Below, one piece after another: positions 15,357 to 40,008 of a stretch of 53,050 nucleotides of DNA. The DNA lies in contig CAJQIZ010000002.1 in assembly GCA_905478555.1 (NCBI GenBank), positions 1 through 53,050 on the forward strand, given 5' to 3'. This DNA is from an uncultured Flavobacteriales bacterium (lineage in GTDB: Bacteria; Bacteroidota; Bacteroidia; Flavobacteriales; BACL11). The notes under the pieces are model-generated. The model was not told the origin of the DNA. It saw only the letters and a list, made by a program, of their open reading frames with translations, and did no database searches. How positions within the stretch are numbered: the stretch's first letter is position 1; every line of letters begins with the position of its first letter. Position numbers and translations under genes: made by a program.

Positions 15357-17315
15357 ATGATAAAAAAAATATTAGTATTATTAATGTGTTTTCCATTTAT
15401 TATAACTGCACAAAATAGTTATAATCTTGGACTAGTTGGGACTTTCAATTGGAGTGGATTATCTTATGATAGTGAAGGATCTGACATTTGGGGATGGTAT
15501 AATCCCGCTACAGGAGTTGAATATGCCCTTGTAGGACTTAATTCAGGTTTTTCTGTAATAGACCTATCGTCTCCTCAAAACCCTACAGAGTCATTTTTCA
15601 TTCAAGATGTAAATTCTACTTGGAGAGATATAAAAACTTGGGGAAATCATGCTTACATTACTACAGAAGGTGGGGGTGGTTTGCTGATTGTAGATCTAAC
15701 AGATTTATCAGGACAAACTTATACGCATTATACCGGTAGTTTTAATTCTGCTCACAACATTTATATTGACGAGAATGGAGTAGCTTATATATTTGGTGCT
15801 GATGTTGGTAATGGTGGAGCTATATTTTTAGATGTTGCAACTAACCCTATGAATCCTTCATATTTAGGAGAGTGGGATGACTATTATATTCATGACGGCA
15901 TGGCTAGAGGAGATACTATGTGGGTTGGATGTATTTATGAAGGAGAATTTTATGCAGTAGATGTATCAGATAAAACTAATCCTTTTACTTTAGGTCATCA
16001 TTCTACACCTAATAATTTTACTCATAATATTTGGATATCTGATGATGGTAATCATGTTTTTACTACAGATGAACAATCAGATTCCTACATTGGTGCTTAT
16101 AATGTAGAGGATATGAATAATATTCAGGAAGTTGATAGAATACAGTCAAATCCTGGATCTAATTCAATTCCTCACAATACTCATGTAGATGGTGATTTTT
16201 TAATTACTTCTTGGTATCGTGATGGTACTATAGTTCATGATATATCTGATCCAAATAATTTAATTCAAGTAGCTTATTATGATTCCTATTCTGGTAGTGG
16301 TAATGGATTTGACGGTTGTTGGGGGACATATCCTTATCTTCCTTCCGGTTTAATTGTCTCTTCTGATATTAATAGTTCTTCTAATACTAATGGAAAATTA
16401 CTTATTTACGAGAGAGGTTTTTCTTCAGCTTGTTATTTAGAGGGAAATGTAATTGATGCAAGTACATCTCAAAATATTAGTGGAGCTTCAATTATTATTT
16501 TAAATACTATAATTCCTAATAATTCTAATTCTAATTTATTTGGTGATTATAGTAGTGGTAATGCTGACCCTGGTTTGTTTGATGTAGTTTTTTCTATGCC
16601 AGGTTATATATCTGACACACAACAGGTTAATTTAAGTAATACTCAAGTTTCAATCTTAAATGCAAGCTTACTTATTGATAATAATGTGCCTATTTTAGGA
16701 TGTATGAACCCTATGGATCCAAATTATAATCCGAATGCAAATACCTCAATAGAATTTGGTGGTGAGGTTAATAATTCTTTTTCAAGTGGAGATTATTTTA
16801 ATGGAGATCAATACTTGATTTTTGATGCAGCGATTAATTTTATCATTAAATCATCTGTTTTTTATGCTGAGGATAATAAAATAATAACTTTTGAATTAAG
16901 AAATAGTTCAGGAGTTGTTATAGATGATACTACACATTTTGTTACACAGGGTCAACAACAATTAATATTAAATTTTGATGTTCCAATTGGTAATGACATG
17001 CAATTAGGTATATCATCTGCAAACTCTGGTTTGTATAGAAATGACGCAGGATCTGTTTATCCTTATAATATTGCTTCTGTAATGAATATTACAGGAAGCA
17101 GTGCTGGTTCTCCTGGATATTATTATTTTTATTATAATATTGAAATAGAAGCTGAATGTATTGACACTCTAACAGATGTTAATAATATTCACTTAGAAAA
17201 GAATCTTTTGAAAATTATTGATGTATTAGGAAGAGAAGTAAATCCTACTACTAATATTACTCTATTTTATGTATATGATGATGGAAGTGTAATGAAGAAA
17301 ATAATAATGGAATAA
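15357..17315 (+). CDS. Secreted LVIVD-repeat (choice-of-anchor B) protein with short tail motif
   Basis: The protein has 652 residues with a signal peptide at about 1-19 (ending IITAQ). Residues 20-355 form an LVIVD-repeat beta-propeller of the choice-of-anchor B type, with recurring VDVSDKTNPF, LDVATNPMNP and HDISDPNN units. A carboxypeptidase-regulatory-like domain (about 360-440) follows. A roughly 130-residue beta module (about 460-600) recurs in the subtilisin at 34226. The last 40 residues form a compact tail, IIDVLGRE ... LFYVYDDGSVMKK, found on three other proteins here. That position is where T9SS sorting domains sit, so export by T9SS is inferred. The stop overlaps the next start (TAATG). 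Confidence 0.82.
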   Translation: MIKKILVLLMCFPFIITAQNSYNLGLVGTFNWSGLSYDSEGSDIWGWYNPATGVEYALVGLNSGFSVIDLSSPQNPTESFFIQDVNSTWRDIKTWGNHAYITTEGGGGLLIVDLTDLSGQTYTHYTGSFNSAHNIYIDENGVAYIFGADVGNGGAIFLDVATNPMNPSYLGEWDDYYIHDGMARGDTMWVGCIYEGEFYAVDVSDKTNPFTLGHHSTPNNFTHNIWISDDGNHVFTTDEQSDSYIGAYNVEDMNNIQEVDRIQSNPGSNSIPHNTHVDGDFLITSWYRDGTIVHDISDPNNLIQVAYYDSYSGSGNGFDGCWGTYPYLPSGLIVSSDINSSSNTNGKLLIYERGFSSACYLEGNVIDASTSQNISGASIIILNTIIPNNSNSNLFGDYSSGNADPGLFDVVFSMPGYISDTQQVNLSNTQVSILNASLLIDNNVPILGCMNPMDPNYNPNANTSIEFGGEVNNSFSSGDYFNGDQYLIFDAAINFIIKSSVFYAEDNKIITFELRNSSGVVIDDTTHFVTQGQQQLILNFDVPIGNDMQLGISSANSGLYRNDAGSVYPYNIASVMNITGSSAGSPGYYYFYYNIEIEAECIDTLTDVNNIHLEKNLLKIIDVLGREVNPTTNITLFYVYDDGSVMKKIIME

Positions 17316-18448
17316 TGAAAAGAATATTGTTTTTTGTATTCCTTCCTTTTCTTACTTTTTCTCAGCAAACCAAAGAAGTCCTTTTTTTAGGAAACTCCTA
17401 TACTTTTTATAATGATTTACCAAATATGGTAAAACAGATAGCATTATCTTTTGGAGATACCTTAAATTATGATCAAAATACTCCAGGAGGAGCTGGTTTT
17501 AGTTTTCATTCATCAAATCAGCAAACTTTAAATAAAATAGCGCAAAAAGAATGGGACTATGTAGTGTTACAAGCTCAATCTCAAGAACCTTCTTTCTCTC
17601 CTAATCAAGTAAGTAATGATTTGTTTCCTTATACACAGATTCTTATAGACTCTATAGAATCGAATTCAAAATGTACGGAACCTATGTTTTTTATGACTTG
17701 GGGTAGAAAGTATGGAGATCAACAAAATTGCCAATTTTATCCTCCTATTTGTACTTATACTGGTATGCAAAAAAGGTTAAGACAATCATATTTGCAGATG
17801 TCGTTTACACATGAGTCTTCTTGTGCTCCTGTTGGTATGGCATGGAAAGAATCTATTGAACAAGATTCTACTTTAAACTTATATTCTTCTGATAATAGTC
17901 ATCCTAGTTTAGAGGGAAGTTATTTGTCTGCTTGTACTTTTTATTCTTCTTTATTTAAAAAACCCTCCATTGGCAGTACATATGTTCCAAATGGAATGGA
18001 TTCTGTTACCGCTTCTTTTTTACAAAACATAGCTTCTAATACTGTTTTGGATAGTCTTTCCACTTGGAATATATTTAACGTAGATGGAGTGTTAATAGAC
18101 AATCTATCAGTACTAGATTTTCTGAATTTTTCTTCCAATTATGAATCTGTGCTTTGGGATTTTGGAGATAGTACCACTTCTACTTTAGAAAACGGAAATC
18201 ATGTATATGATCAACCAGGAACTTATACTATTACTTTAACTGCTTTTACAAATGATTCGTGTGTTTCAGAATCTATTTCTGTTGATATTACTTTATCTTT
18301 TGCTACTTCAATTTCTGAAACTAATGTAAACAAGAAAGTAGTCAGTATAATAGATGTATTTGGCAGGGAAACTACAGAAAGAAAAAACACTATTTTATTT
18401 TATTTATATAAAGATGGTCGGGTAGAAAAGAAAATGGTTATAGAATAA
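17315..18448 (+). CDS. Secreted SGNH-hydrolase-like protein with PKD domain and short tail motif
   Basis: The protein has 377 residues. The signal peptide ends at TFSQ (1-17). The N-terminal domain resembles SGNH/GDSL or DUF4886 hydrolases: LGNSYT with candidate nucleophile Ser28, and DNSHPS with candidate Asp193 and His196. Substrates of such enzymes are usually esters on polysaccharides or lipids; here it is unknown. A PKD domain follows (VLWDFGDSTTSTLENG and PGTYTITLTAF, about 275-325). The protein closes with the compact tail IIDVFGRE ... LFYLYKDGRVEKK shared with its neighbours. Its ATG overlaps the stop of the LVIVD protein by one base, so the two are probably made together and may act together on the cell surface. 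Confidence 0.75.
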   Translation: MKRILFFVFLPFLTFSQQTKEVLFLGNSYTFYNDLPNMVKQIALSFGDTLNYDQNTPGGAGFSFHSSNQQTLNKIAQKEWDYVVLQAQSQEPSFSPNQVSNDLFPYTQILIDSIESNSKCTEPMFFMTWGRKYGDQQNCQFYPPICTYTGMQKRLRQSYLQMSFTHESSCAPVGMAWKESIEQDSTLNLYSSDNSHPSLEGSYLSACTFYSSLFKKPSIGSTYVPNGMDSVTASFLQNIASNTVLDSLSTWNIFNVDGVLIDNLSVLDFLNFSSNYESVLWDFGDSTTSTLENGNHVYDQPGTYTITLTAFTNDSCVSESISVDITLSFATSISETNVNKKVVSIIDVFGRETTERKNTILFYLYKDGRVEKKMVIE

Positions 18449-19869: not shown

Positions 19870-21195
19870 ATGAGACAACTTTTACTAATTTTCCTTATAA
19901 GTATTCCAAATTTTATTTTCTCACAATTTACATTTAGTCCAGAAACACAAATTTCAGACAATACTACTGGATATGGTAGGCCTAGAATGGCGATTACTGC
20001 AAATGATATTCCTGTAATTATTTGGTTTAAGGAAGGAAGCAGTCAGTCCATAAAAATTAGTAGAGGAAGTGGTAGTGCAACTTTTTCCCTCCCAACAGAT
20101 GTAGTCAACTCAGATTTAGAACCTACAGGTTTTATTGGTCCGGAAATTGCAGCAAAAGGAGATACAGTTTATATTGCATTTATTTGTGGTGCTCAGAACA
20201 ATGCCATTATGCTAAAAAAATCTTTTGATGGAGGGATTACCTTTTCAGATACTATTAGGGTTTCTCCAAATGATAATGCTTACAAATATTCCATGCCAAA
20301 TGTTGCTGTAACGGAGGATGGTAATCCTATAGTGACTTATATGAAATGTCTTGCTAATTATACTAATTGGGAACAAATGGTGAAAGTGTCTTTTAATTTA
20401 GGATTATCTTTTTCTGATGAAACTGACGCTTCTGCTATTGCAGCTGGGGTACCTTGTGATTGTTGTAAATCTACTATAGTTAGTCAAGGAAATAATGTTT
20501 TTCTAATCTTCAGAAATGACTATAATAATGTCAGAAATATGTATATATCTAAATCTATTGATGAAGGGCTTTCATTTACTGCTACACAAGATTTAGATGA
20601 TTTAAATTGGGTAATTAATTCTTGTCCTACTTCTTCTGGAAATGGAGTAGTAAATGGAGATTCTATTATGGTAGTAAGAAGAAATGCAGGAAGTGGAGTA
20701 CATCAATTGTATATTTCTAATATAAATACAACAGATTTGCAGAAATCTTACTTTAAAGAATTAGATCCTATAGGAACAGGATTGCAAGACAAAGCAGAAA
20801 TTGCTGGAGAAGGAAGTGTGTATGGAATGGTGTGGCACGATAACAGAAGTGGAAATAATTCTTGTTATTTTTCTTATACTACTAATGGAATTAACAATTT
20901 ATCTGTTTCTATTGAAATGTCCGACTCTACAGCAATTGGACATAAAATGTTCCCAGATATTGAATATTCTAACGGGAAATTCTTTTTTGTGTATAAATAT
21001 AATACCGGGCATTCTATTATTTATAAAGAGTTAGACTTGTCTAATTTTAATGCTATAAACACTTCAAATAATACAGAAAAAAAACTACTTAAAACTACAG
21101 ATTTATTCGGAAGGGAATCTGCTCCTAAAAATAATGTTCCGTACTTCAGTATTTATAAAGATGGTTCGGTAGAGAAGAAAGTTATTGTAGAGTAA
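19870..21195 (+). CDS. Secreted sialidase-like (BNR) repeat protein with short tail motif
   Basis: The protein has 441 residues. The signal peptide is about 1-19 (ending FIFSQ). The body reads as a six-bladed beta-propeller of the sialidase/BNR type: repeats such as SFDGGITFSDTIRVS, SFNLGLSFSDE and SIDEGLSFTATQDL resemble Asp-box blades. The arginine triad of true sialidases is not evident, so enzymatic activity is doubtful. A CDCCK cluster near residue 197 is unusual. The C-terminus carries the compact tail TTDLFGRE ... YFSIYKDGSVEKK. Probable T9SS cargo. It starts 28 nt after the helicase stop. Confidence 0.75.
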   Translation: MRQLLLIFLISIPNFIFSQFTFSPETQISDNTTGYGRPRMAITANDIPVIIWFKEGSSQSIKISRGSGSATFSLPTDVVNSDLEPTGFIGPEIAAKGDTVYIAFICGAQNNAIMLKKSFDGGITFSDTIRVSPNDNAYKYSMPNVAVTEDGNPIVTYMKCLANYTNWEQMVKVSFNLGLSFSDETDASAIAAGVPCDCCKSTIVSQGNNVFLIFRNDYNNVRNMYISKSIDEGLSFTATQDLDDLNWVINSCPTSSGNGVVNGDSIMVVRRNAGSGVHQLYISNINTTDLQKSYFKELDPIGTGLQDKAEIAGEGSVYGMVWHDNRSGNNSCYFSYTTNGINNLSVSIEMSDSTAIGHKMFPDIEYSNGKFFFVYKYNTGHSIIYKELDLSNFNAINTSNNTEKKLLKTTDLFGRESAPKNNVPYFSIYKDGSVEKKVIVE

Positions 21196-31919: not shown

Positions 31920-32534
31920 TTATTGTATAAATATTCTCTTTTTTATACTTCCATCAGAATAGATGTAAATTAATGGAGTGTTTGGCATTGTTTTTGTAAG
32001 TCTTCCGTGTATATCCATAATTTTAATAAGTTTTTTATTTTCCACTGTTGAATAAATAGAAGTTGGGTTGCAATTATTACTAAAGTAAGTCCAACTGTCT
32101 ACTGACCAGTTGTCTTCACAATAACTAATATCCTCTACATCAATACAATTTAAATTGGGATTGTTCATGGATAAGAAATACCATAATCCTAAGTTATTTC
32201 CATTTCTTAAATCGATAGATATTAGGTTGTTTCCTGAACAAGTGACTTCAAAAAGTTGAGTATTATTACTTAAATTAATTGTAGATAAGTTATTATTGTA
32301 GCAGAATAAAGATTTAAGAGCAATAAAATCCTCTATACCAGTTAAATCTGCTATATTTTCATTATTAATATAAAGTTCAGTAATTGTATCAATAGCAGAA
32401 GTTTCTACTACACCATCTATTACAAAATCGTACCCTAAATTTAAAAGAGCTAGTTCGAAATTGGCATCTGGTACGTTAGTATATTGACCAAATATATTGA
32501 TAGGTATTAAAAGTGTTAAAAGTATTTTTTTCAT
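31920..32534 (-). CDS. Small secreted leucine-rich-repeat protein with short tail motif
   Basis: The protein has 204 residues. The signal peptide ends in NIFGQ (1-17). The opening YTNVPDANFELALLNLGYD is a standard start of flavobacterial LRR proteins. Four or five short LRR units follow (ITELYINNENIADLTGI, LKSLFCYNNNLSTINLS, LFEVTCSGNNLISIDLR, NNPNLNCIDVED). It ends with the compact tail IMDIHGRL ... LIYIYSDGSIKK, which is otherwise found on three proteins at 15-21 kb. Probably a surface-attached or secreted T9SS substrate. It is convergent with sucC and follows the COG2509 gene with a 41-nt gap. Confidence 0.78.
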   Translation of the reverse strand: MKKILLTLLIPINIFGQYTNVPDANFELALLNLGYDFVIDGVVETSAIDTITELYINNENIADLTGIEDFIALKSLFCYNNNLSTINLSNNTQLFEVTCSGNNLISIDLRNGNNLGLWYFLSMNNPNLNCIDVEDISYCEDNWSVDSWTYFSNNCNPTSIYSTVENKKLIKIMDIHGRLTKTMPNTPLIYIYSDGSIKKRIFIQ

Positions 32535-37200: not shown

Positions 37201-37795
37201 TACGGCACAATCTATTACTTTTGAGTTAAGAGACAATAACTCTAATATTCTGGAAGATACAACCATAACGGTTCAAGTAGGTTTAAACACTCTTTATATT
37301 GATTTTGATGTTCCGGTAATGAATGATTTAGAATTAGGAATGAATAGTAATAATTCTGATTTGTATAGAAACTCCACAGGTTCTGCTTATCCTTATTATA
37401 TTGGTGGATTAGCTTCTATTACCGGACATAACTCGCCTAATAGTGACACTTATCATTATTTCTTCTATAATGTACAGATGAGGGAGAATTGTAAATCTGA
37501 ATTTGCAGAAGCTACAGCAGTGTTTTTAACTCCCCAAACAGTATTTACTCCCCAATCAGATTTTAAATTGTATCCTAATCCGAGCTCTAACTATTTATTT
37601 GTAGAAAATAAAGAATGGATAAAAAGGATTAAAATATACGACATACAATCTAGAGAAGTGTTTTCAGAAAACATCTATTCTAAAACAAAAAGTATAGATG
37701 TTTCTACTTTTTCATCTGGAGTGTATTTTATAGAATTGCATATTGAAAATAATATTATTCGAAAAGAATTTGTAATTCAAAATGATAAAAAATAA
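34226..37795 (+). CDS. Secreted S8 (subtilisin) peptidase with PKD and T9SS type A tail
   Basis: The protein has 1189 residues from ATG 34226. The signal peptide ends near residue 19 (SVMSQ). A pro-region (about 20-210) precedes the S8 domain, with Asp230 in MMQDDGLIG, His263 in NDHGDHVAGT and Ser429 in KTGTSMSCPGIAG, so the triad is complete. A P-domain-like or Ig-like region and an FN3-like segment follow. A PKD domain (FWDFGDGTTSSLQNP, about 807-880), a CHU_C-type Ig domain, and the about 130-residue module shared with the 15357 gene (about 957-1095) come next. The C-terminus is a canonical type A T9SS sorting domain (LYPNPSSNYLFVENK ... GVYFIELH). It is an extracellular protease. The next gene overlaps by 14 nt. 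Confidence 0.92.
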   Translation: MKKLFFSVTFLLSVYSVMSQQIVLNLKSGSYNLNQNLECDISDNDNKRLLFFSVLPTEQQKVELQKRGVKFLYYLPKNIFVVSLKDNISLKEFVNFNILSVNKFFPNYKIDKKLKQTRFPVWTIKEGLLHVKVLLFEDIIISDVVEDFRFLSQSIEDVNEFSHSITISINPQNLNLISELNSVSFIEPIDPPSEKENHEGRTLHRSNVINTNFTTGRHYDGSGINVMMQDDGLIGPHIDYQGRIDQSNCTGCSSSFSNDHGDHVAGTIMGSGNLDPLVAGMANGAFLYVYSSSNNNYYDLPTIYQNNDVIITSKSYSNGCNAGYTSLSKDLDEQILLYPSLIHVFSAGNSGTSDCGYGAGSNWGNVTGGHKQAKNVIAVANLNGLGVLASSSSRGPAADGRIKPDIGAKGTSVNSTIPENNYGLKTGTSMSCPGIAGILAQLYQAYKDLNGGVNPPSALMKCILLNSADDLGNPGPDFKYGWGEVNAFKAVKMLENSNYTTSFISQSGVNTHSITIPSGTKQVKIMTYWHDKEASTSASVALVNDINTTLSYIPLGTSYNPLVLDESPNQTSLNSIAIPSIDDLNNMEQIIIDNPIAGNYTLNVNGFAVPYGPQEYWITYEFISDDVELTFPIGGEGFVPGDSEFIRWDASEGTTPFMLEYTIDGTNWIIINSTINSNSRYYSWLVPNTVSDNVKVRVSRSASIDESDENFTIVGVPQNVFVNWVCPDSIYVFWNAVSGATSYEVSMLGNVYMDSMMTTTNTMGFILNTNSTNIDSWFSVCAKVNNNKGRRAIAVNAQPTNSGCVAAPIANFSFSTSVSCTGDINFIDNSQNQPNSWFWDFGDGTTSSLQNPVHSYLQQGSYSVQLIVSNSLGIDTVLQNSVVTIVFFPAPLVDNDTSYVNPSTFILTSPSNNVNWYADTLGNTILYSGANFTTPLLTQNTTYYVREFGGTAVYGGPADNTIGSGGYYNNDRHLFLDCYTPSTIISFDVYAGTAQSITFELRDNNSNILEDTTITVQVGLNTLYIDFDVPVMNDLELGMNSNNSDLYRNSTGSAYPYYIGGLASITGHNSPNSDTYHYFFYNVQMRENCKSEFAEATAVFLTPQTVFTPQSDFKLYPNPSSNYLFVENKEWIKRIKIYDIQSREVFSENIYSKTKSIDVSTFSSGVYFIELHIENNIIRKEFVIQNDKK

Positions 37796-38409: not shown

Positions 38410-40008
38410 TTATTCTATTATCAATTTACTTTTTGATATGTAGTTATTGCTTTCAATAATTAGTAAATAGATTCCATTTTGTAGGTTTCCTTTTTCTATT
38501 TCTATTTTATCAGAACTAATTCTATGTGTAAAGTCTTTTACCATTCTTGCTTGTGGATCGAATAAAGAGATGTTATTTACTACAGAATTGTCTAACAAAT
38601 TAATAGTTGTTTTGTTAGTAAACGGATTAGGATATACTACTAGTTTATTAGTTAGTAAGTCAGAAATCCCTACTTGTATGTTCGATACATTTACTGGGTC
38701 TGCAGAAGCAACACATCCGTTAGAGTCAGTAACTGTTAAGTTGTAGTTTCCATTTTGAGAAGGAGTAAATATATTAGTAGTACTTACAGTAATTCCATTT
38801 AAAGTCCAATCGTAAGTATAGTTAGGAGTACCTCCACTAACAGTTCCTTCAATTTGTGTACCTGTATAATTAGCACTCAATAATATCTGCAATGGTTCTG
38901 TTATAGTATAAACAGCAGATCCTGAAGAACCTTGAATATCACTAACACTTACATTGTAAGTACCTGCAGATAAATTAATTGGATTTACACCATACCAATT
39001 TGTAGTATAAGGTCCAACACCACCAGCGATACATAATTGTGCTGTTCCTGTTGTATCTCCAAAGCATAATATATCAGATGTAACTGTGTTTACATTTAAA
39101 GCTCCTGGTTCCGTAGCATCAAAACTACCTGCTTCAAAAAATACTCCAGAATCATAACTATCGTCCGATCCATCTGCAATAGCTAATTTTATATGATATA
39201 CATTACACGGTATAACAACTGCTTTTGCAGTAAATACATCCGTAAAACCATTAAATGCAGATGCTGCCGCTAAGGTATCGTGATTGTAATATTGTGAGTT
39301 TAAGGTGTCGTTTACTGTAGAAATAGTAATAGGTAAGGAAGGACTAGAGTTTGGTACTTCAGCAATGTTGATTGCTCCACCTGGAAAATTAGATGGTGAG
39401 GCATAAGGTCCTGTTATTCCTGGCCCAGAAATGAAAAAGGAAAACACATCATTATATTGTGAATTTACAAAGTCTAAATATTCTTCTGAGGCAAATACAT
39501 AATTAAATTTTACGGTATCGGCAGAAGGTACGAAATCAAATTCTAAAATAGCAGCATCTCCAGTAGAACTAACGGAGAAAGTTTGACTAATTAAACCTGG
39601 TACAGAATTAGCGATTGTTAATAGGTCAACATCTCCATTTCCAGAAAAATTAGTAGTTAAATGATAAGTTTGAATTGACGGGGTAGAGTCAATAATATTC
39701 CATGCAGAGTCATAAATATAATTCCACCAAGGCATGGTGTCTGCACCAATTTTACCAATAGAATCTACACTTCCGGTAGAAAGTACAAATCCTTCCGTAA
39801 ATCCAATTAGTCCTAAAGAATCGGTAAAATAACCTATCTGTGATGAATCCCCTGTAAAAACATGATTAGAGGTAGTTACTCCATTTCCAATTAATACATT
39901 ATCAATTAAATAGGTTGCTTGGTTTTGTGCAGGGTTGGTACCCATTTGTAATTGAGAATAAGCAGTAACACTTATTACAGTAAGAACAACTAAGATAATT
40001 TTCTTCAT
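38410..40008 (-). CDS. Choice-of-anchor L surface protein with SprB repeat and T9SS type A tail
   Basis: The protein has 532 residues. The signal peptide ends near residue 18 (VTAYSQ). The choice-of-anchor L domain occupies about 25-295, with VKFNYVFASEEYLDFVNSQY and DVFSFFISGPGI as hallmarks. One or two SprB-like repeats (CFGDTTGTAQLCIAGGVGPY, then GGTPNYTYDWTLNG) follow. The end is a canonical type A sorting domain (VVYPNPFTNKTTINLLDN, GIYLLIIES). It probably belongs to the adhesin or gliding-related surface layer. A TATTTTTG element is 22 nt before the ATG at 40008. Confidence 0.88.
   Translation of the reverse strand: MKKIILVVLTVISVTAYSQLQMGTNPAQNQATYLIDNVLIGNGVTTSNHVFTGDSSQIGYFTDSLGLIGFTEGFVLSTGSVDSIGKIGADTMPWWNYIYDSAWNIIDSTPSIQTYHLTTNFSGNGDVDLLTIANSVPGLISQTFSVSSTGDAAILEFDFVPSADTVKFNYVFASEEYLDFVNSQYNDVFSFFISGPGITGPYASPSNFPGGAINIAEVPNSSPSLPITISTVNDTLNSQYYNHDTLAAASAFNGFTDVFTAKAVVIPCNVYHIKLAIADGSDDSYDSGVFFEAGSFDATEPGALNVNTVTSDILCFGDTTGTAQLCIAGGVGPYTTNWYGVNPINLSAGTYNVSVSDIQGSSGSAVYTITEPLQILLSANYTGTQIEGTVSGGTPNYTYDWTLNGITVSTTNIFTPSQNGNYNLTVTDSNGCVASADPVNVSNIQVGISDLLTNKLVVYPNPFTNKTTINLLDNSVVNNISLFDPQARMVKDFTHRISSDKIEIEKGNLQNGIYLLIIESNNYISKSKLIIE

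Follow-up and report, generated by a model that had tools for sequence, protein, structure and literature searches.

The window, i.e., the whole stretch of 53,050 nucleotides that was analyzed, is one contig (30% G+C) of a 1.79-Mb, 99% complete genome of an uncultured Flavobacteriales bacterium. It harbors four genes whose products end in a shared tail of approximately 46 residues, as the sequence-only reading had claimed. Three of these genes are on the plus strand and code for a secreted choice-of-anchor B protein (15357..17315; TIGR04312, 201 bits), a secreted protein with matches to the DUF4886 (PF16227) and PKD models (17315..18448), and a secreted BNR-like protein (19870..21195), while the fourth, on the minus strand, codes for a secreted LRR-like protein (31920..32534), many relatives of which bear the same tail. 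Each of the four carries an N-terminal signal peptide, with a Gln after its probable cleavage site, the usual arrangement in Bacteroidota. Their bodies are indeed unrelated; of the domain labels that had been given to them, the first two, LVIVD and SGNH-PKD, become choice-of-anchor B and DUF4886-PKD, and the assignments to BNR and LRR fall below the Pfam cut-offs. LRR proteins with a tail of this kind occur elsewhere as two or three genes per 8-kb stretch (L130, L106), this family being expanded in the corresponding genomes.

The tail of the choice-of-anchor B protein (17175..17312, plus strand; 46 residues, DVNNIHLEKNLLKIIDVLGRE...KKIIME) gives this protein the C-terminus ...KNLLKIIDVLGREVNPTTNITLFYVYDDGSVMKKIIME. 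Those of the DUF4886-PKD protein (18305..18445, plus strand; 47 residues), the BNR-like protein (21049..21192, plus strand; 48 residues), and the LRR-like protein (31923..32063, minus strand; 47 residues) yield the C-termini ...KKVVSIIDVFGRETTERKNTILFYLYKDGRVEKKMVIE, ...KKLLKTTDLFGRESAPKNNVPYFSIYKDGSVEKKVIVE, and ...KKLIKIMDIHGRLTKTMPNTPLIYIYSDGSIKKRIFIQ, respectively. With the first tail as a reference, the three others show 39-52% identity and can be aligned over their full length, and a regular expression for the tail pattern matched exactly these four tails in a six-frame translation of the window. The literal form LFYxYxDGSVxKK is found in the choice-of-anchor B protein alone, and the other tails vary. 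Two further proteins of the window had been said to carry canonical type A CTDs and serve as comparators, namely an S8 peptidase (34208/34226-37795; CTD at 37568..37777, plus strand) and a choice-of-anchor L protein (38410-40008; CTD at 38416..38637, minus strand). Both pass the type A models TIGR04183 and PF18962, although the latter CTD has GIYL rather than the GVYF ascribed to it. As had been noted, YPNP is seen in none of the short tails.

Existing models do not recognize the tail. Neither TIGR04183 nor PF18962 matched any of the four proteins at E<=10, nor did the models of the T9SS type B CTD (TIGR04131/PF13585) at the same threshold. Among 25 tails of the same genome, one reached E=0.21 with TIGR04183, and none was listed with PF18962. 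When the PDB was queried with a profile of the tail, the sole match was weak and unrelated. Anchors of the LPXTG or PEP-CTERM types were ruled out as well, as the proteins have no long hydrophobic segment and do not match the corresponding models.

The tail is abundant in its own genome. A profile built from the four tails detected about 27 tails that are intact, as well as three that are broken. Approximately 23 of the full tails lie outside of the window and were found with E values down to 1.5e-21, and therefore the resemblance between tails is not due to chance. The same genome has 47 type A CTDs above the PF18962 cut-off, at places other than those of the short tails. The broken or orphan copies (C4:33286-33351, C14:61452-61535, and C15:24122-24181; L028, L029, and L030, respectively) are affected by stops, a frameshift or loss of the body, which suggests turnover of tail-bearing genes.

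Both kinds of CTDs coexist in each of the 52 genomes of the GTDB family, with 3-51 short and 18-62 long matches per genome. The family totals are 1,062 short vs. 2,026 long CTDs, and the short ones represent a median share of 34% of the T9SS signals detected. At the level of the order, the tail was found in at least 58 of 296 sampled genomes, in four families with several copies and in a fifth with one or two. In the phylum sample, it was found in at least two of 392 genomes, the second with a single copy; the counts of both scans are lower bounds. A search for related loci with six of the closer rows of the tail alignment led to named records that are mostly from uncultured marine Flavobacteriales and Cryomorphaceae. 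The single copy of the phylum sample (L169) is carried by a protein that reads as GH16-like from its sequence, in a 5.2-Mb genome (G379) of another family, where it was perhaps acquired horizontally. Typical tails are also present in MAG records titled Candidatus Neomarinimicrobiota (L103) and Chryseobacterium gleum (L137, L145), which are probably mislabelled or contaminated.

The position of the tail is invariably terminal, without internal matches. The set comprises 173 distinct tails, 171 of which have their end within a locus; all of these end 0-6 residues from the stop, 138 of them with no residue in between. The carriers usually have a signal peptide. Of 137 full-length ones, 119 passed a crude test for it, vs. 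79 of 252 ORFs of other kinds, and many of the carriers that failed show a recognizable signal peptide that begins in an unusual way. In 107 of the 119 that passed, Gln comes after the probable cleavage site. In pairs of tails from the window's own genome, identical residues are encoded by the same codon in 52.6% of cases, vs. 54.7% expected from codon usage. The peptide has thus been conserved while its codons were randomized, which indicates long-lasting purifying selection; recent copying of a DNA cassette is thereby ruled out as the cause of tail uniformity.

In an AlphaFold2 model of the tail calculated with 58 rows, residues 11-15, 29-34, and 39-43 form the strands of a three-stranded sheet, with pLDDT values above 90 in the core. 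While Foldseek returned no significant match with this 46-residue model, 14 entries were found with VIA-align, among which are the CTDs of RgpB (7pq4), RemZ (8gl8), and RemA (8gl6), with 41-43 of the 46 residues aligned at 2.4-3.1 A. The Z scores of the CTD matches are only 2.5-3.0 and unrelated folds score alike, and therefore the structural match represents support rather than proof. Upstream of the sheet, 105 of 160 tails have a T[SAGND][IVL] sequence, located approximately 14-16 residues ahead of motif B, vs. a background of 22%; counted from this putative junction, the tail is 41-55 residues long, with a mode of 46. In the window, the tail of the DUF4886-PKD protein starts with such a T|SI sequence, a predicted sortase junction, and its AlphaFold2 model from S-I onward comprises three strands. 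In the model of the full-length LRR-like protein, the T158|S-I junction is located within a low-confidence linker, residues 158-164, which connects the repeats to the three-stranded part.

Comparison with type A CTDs has revealed two shared motifs and an altered one in this very uniform family. The profile homology to type A is weak: with hhalign, the motif B stretch alone is matched (P=5e-5), with a probability of 68%, or of 41% when the wider alignment was used. For motif E, the C-terminal residues of the tails score 8.0 on a type A matrix, vs. 8.4 for type A ends, -1.0 for shuffled sequences, and -5.9 for other proteins (p about 1e-49). The tail also has Lys or Arg at places that correspond to the conserved Lys of type A CTDs. 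Motif D is of the NTPLFYIY type, and a manual alignment of the next strand places a conserved Asn, present in 83% of the tails, at the position that the Gly of GxY occupies in type A CTDs. A GxY-like motif D was seen only in an outlying relative, L188 (LPAGVYVFWYSDGSFEKRLI), which keeps GVY and has no YPNP; judging from its sequence, its tail is an intermediate between the type A and short forms. Another outlying relative, L184 (FNGEVLLYLYNDGTVEKKMVK), also retains more of the type A form.

The strongest evidence for the function of the tail comes from natural exchanges. When proteins were compared without their tails, 78 pairs of bodies were found whose members differ in their C-terminal signal, short in one and type A in the other. 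Some of these pairs share only common repeats or domains, and thus it is the close pairs that carry weight. In the own genome of the window, L013 and L014, which have short tails, are 91-94% identical at the ends of their bodies to L034 and L038, which have type A CTDs; their DNA is nearly identical over the last 250-300 bases of the bodies, and the similarity ends at the junction. Over 457 residues, the body of L115, which has a short tail, shows 93% identity to that of L122, which has a type A CTD. In L115, an additional domain separates this body from the short tail, so that more than the CTD was exchanged in this case. In addition, the body of the window's choice-of-anchor L protein, which ends in a type A CTD there, is combined with a short CTD in a relative from a genome of the same genus (L062). 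As far as sequences go, these swaps argue that the short and type A signals do the same kind of job.

The machinery for such signals is available. The genome of the window codes for SprA, for PorU adjoining PorV, and for PorQ. SprA was identified in 57 of the 58 tail-bearing genomes of the order, and the 58th (87% complete) has PorV at 418 bits, so that each of them has SprA or PorV. The SprA-negative genomes of the sample are mainly the small, reduced genomes of one family (f15), and the co-occurrence is therefore confounded by phylogeny: it provides no counterexample rather than independent support. Two more proteins of the PorV family are encoded in the genome of the window, L206 (C19:34213-35181), which by NCBIfam is neither PorV, PorQ nor PorV2, and L208 (C9:67171-68136), which is PorV2-like; they are possible further carriers.

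Given its terminal place, the machinery, the swaps, the predicted fold, and the motifs, the tail is very probably a reduced T9SS CTD of approximately 46 residues, which would most likely take its carriers along a Sec, SprA-PorV, and PorU route. The minimal sorting signal that had been proposed from the letters of the window is well supported by the terminal location, the signal peptides, the presence of T9SS in the host genomes, the failure of the type A models to detect it, its likeness to the core of the CTD, and the exchanges with type A. It also withstood the checks that had been named as able to refute it, for internal matches, missing signal peptides, host genomes devoid of T9SS, and matches to type A models. 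Tail-bearing proteins would be exported through Sec, and their tails would then be recognized by the translocon SprA and by the carrier PorV. Once the protein has crossed the outer membrane, its flexible T|S-I linker would most likely be cut by PorU, and the mature protein would be either released or joined to a surface polysaccharide. The tail appears to retain the counterparts of three of the seven strands of a type A CTD, namely 3, 6, and 7, with motif B (KLIKIxDxLGRE), an altered motif D (N-T-P-LFYIY), and motif E (EKKIIIE), YPNP and the upper sheet having gone. It may have derived from the type A core or converged on it.

Such an economy of structure has precedents. In P. intermedia, short CTDs are cleaved off and the new C-terminus is glycosylated, and AlphaFold3 models superimpose strands 1-3 of a short CTD on strands 3, 6, and 7 of a long one, at the same site of PorV (Ye et al., 2025; PMC11969387). 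For HBP35, the region of the CTD required for the transport of GFP was localized within the C-terminal 22 residues, the last strands with motifs D and E thus holding the required part of the signal (Shoji et al., 2011; PMC3120885). That fragment is an artificial deletion of a full CTD, unlike the tail described here, which is natural and has kept motif B too. In the structures of the F. johnsoniae translocon, only one of the conserved residues of type A CTDs, the Lys close to their C-terminus, is seen in contact with PorV (PMC10994853). The surface buried there by the entire CTD is, on the other hand, very large (PMC10994853), and the short tail can provide only a part of it, which counts against the route proposed here.

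The closest likeness is to the short CTDs of P. intermedia, which are 43-55 residues long from the cleavage site, vs. 41-55 for the tail. Both have motifs B and E with a short spacing between the motifs and a predicted single three-stranded sheet, both coexist with long CTDs in the same genome, and both have LRR proteins among their carriers (PMC11969387). An Ile stands at position +2 of the junction in P. intermedia (PT/GI), and the putative junction of the tail, T/SI, would have it there too. They differ in motif D, GxY/GxN in P. intermedia and marked by the conserved Asn here, in the far greater uniformity of the tail (LFYIYDDGTVEKKIIIE), and in their hosts, marine Flavobacteriales being a lineage distant from P. 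intermedia. Moreover, HMMs of the P. gingivalis and T. forsythia CTDs detected most of the P. intermedia ones, whereas TIGR04183 and PF18962 miss the tail. Because motif D differs, the tail was not placed in the P. intermedia family, a separation that is based on the published description of those CTDs. By analogy, the tail most likely works like the P. intermedia short CTDs. With type A CTDs (TIGR04183/PF18962) it has in common the C-terminal location, the Sec signal peptide, a T-S/G-I/V-like junction, motif B, motif E with its Lys, and interchangeability on the same bodies, but it lacks motif A (YPNP), the upper sheet, and GxY, has three rather than seven strands and approximately 46 rather than 70-80 residues, and is not detected by the models. 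The type B CTD (TIGR04131/PF13585) is likewise a C-terminal T9SS signal; it differs by its five motifs in the last 100 residues, by its PorP/SprF partner, and by the frequent clustering of the genes (PMC10202324; PMC12618676), and its models do not match the tail.

It had also been suggested that the tail might form a class of its own, whose proteins may be attached in a different way. In its most developed form, this idea would have the short tail recognized by a PorV-family carrier of its own, such as L206 or PorV2, and its proteins kept uncleaved or sent elsewhere, much as type B CTDs use PorP/SprF. The presence of L206 and L208 beside PorV and PorQ, the altered motif D, the uniformity of the tails, and the carrier-specific CTDs of the type B pathway (PMC12618676) speak in its favor. 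It nevertheless seems unlikely, as motif B, motif E, and the T|S-I junction are kept as in type A proteins of the same genome, short and type A CTDs replace each other on the same bodies, and the short CTDs of P. intermedia, which are processed like the long ones, are predicted to bind PorV like them (PMC11969387). Were it true, a class with its own carrier would direct about a third of the T9SS cargo of these marine bacteria to a different destination than that of type A proteins, an equally doubtful prospect, and a CTD swap would re-route a protein.

Two other explanations would deny the tail a role in sorting. That it is a small stabilizing or adhesive C-terminal β-sheet module of surface proteins exported in another way has nothing direct in its favor and is quite improbable, given that it sits precisely where other bodies, 91-94% identical, have a type A CTD, that it is always terminal with C-terminal residues like those of type A CTDs, and that it is confined to genomes with T9SS components. 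Even less credible is the notion that the tails are non-functional, decayed type A CTDs that have lost their N-terminal half. The three broken copies in the window's own genome and relatives such as L188, which keep more of the type A pattern, might be taken as signs of decay, but a peptide strongly conserved over randomized codons, with at least three matches in every genome of the family, does not behave as a relic. A reduced T9SS CTD thus remains the preferred reading.

The short T9SS CTDs described here form a genuine family, which is large and has escaped annotation. That a CTD can be short was already known, from reports on a single species, P. intermedia, which has been described as the sole one with CTDs of both sizes. 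In a non-exhaustive search of the literature, the peptide DGTVEKK of the present tail occurred in none of the papers listed, and work on short CTDs of T9SS was found for P. intermedia only. What is new is a second lineage, a divergent variant, its wide use, and the natural swaps of signals. A divergent short CTD is now known in every sampled genome of one marine Flavobacteriales family and in several related families. As the standard models miss it, the secretomes of these marine Flavobacteriales are systematically under-counted. Near-identical bodies on which short and full CTDs have naturally replaced each other offer a ready comparison for the role of the upper half of the CTD, and they also allow one to ask whether short and long signals share one fate.
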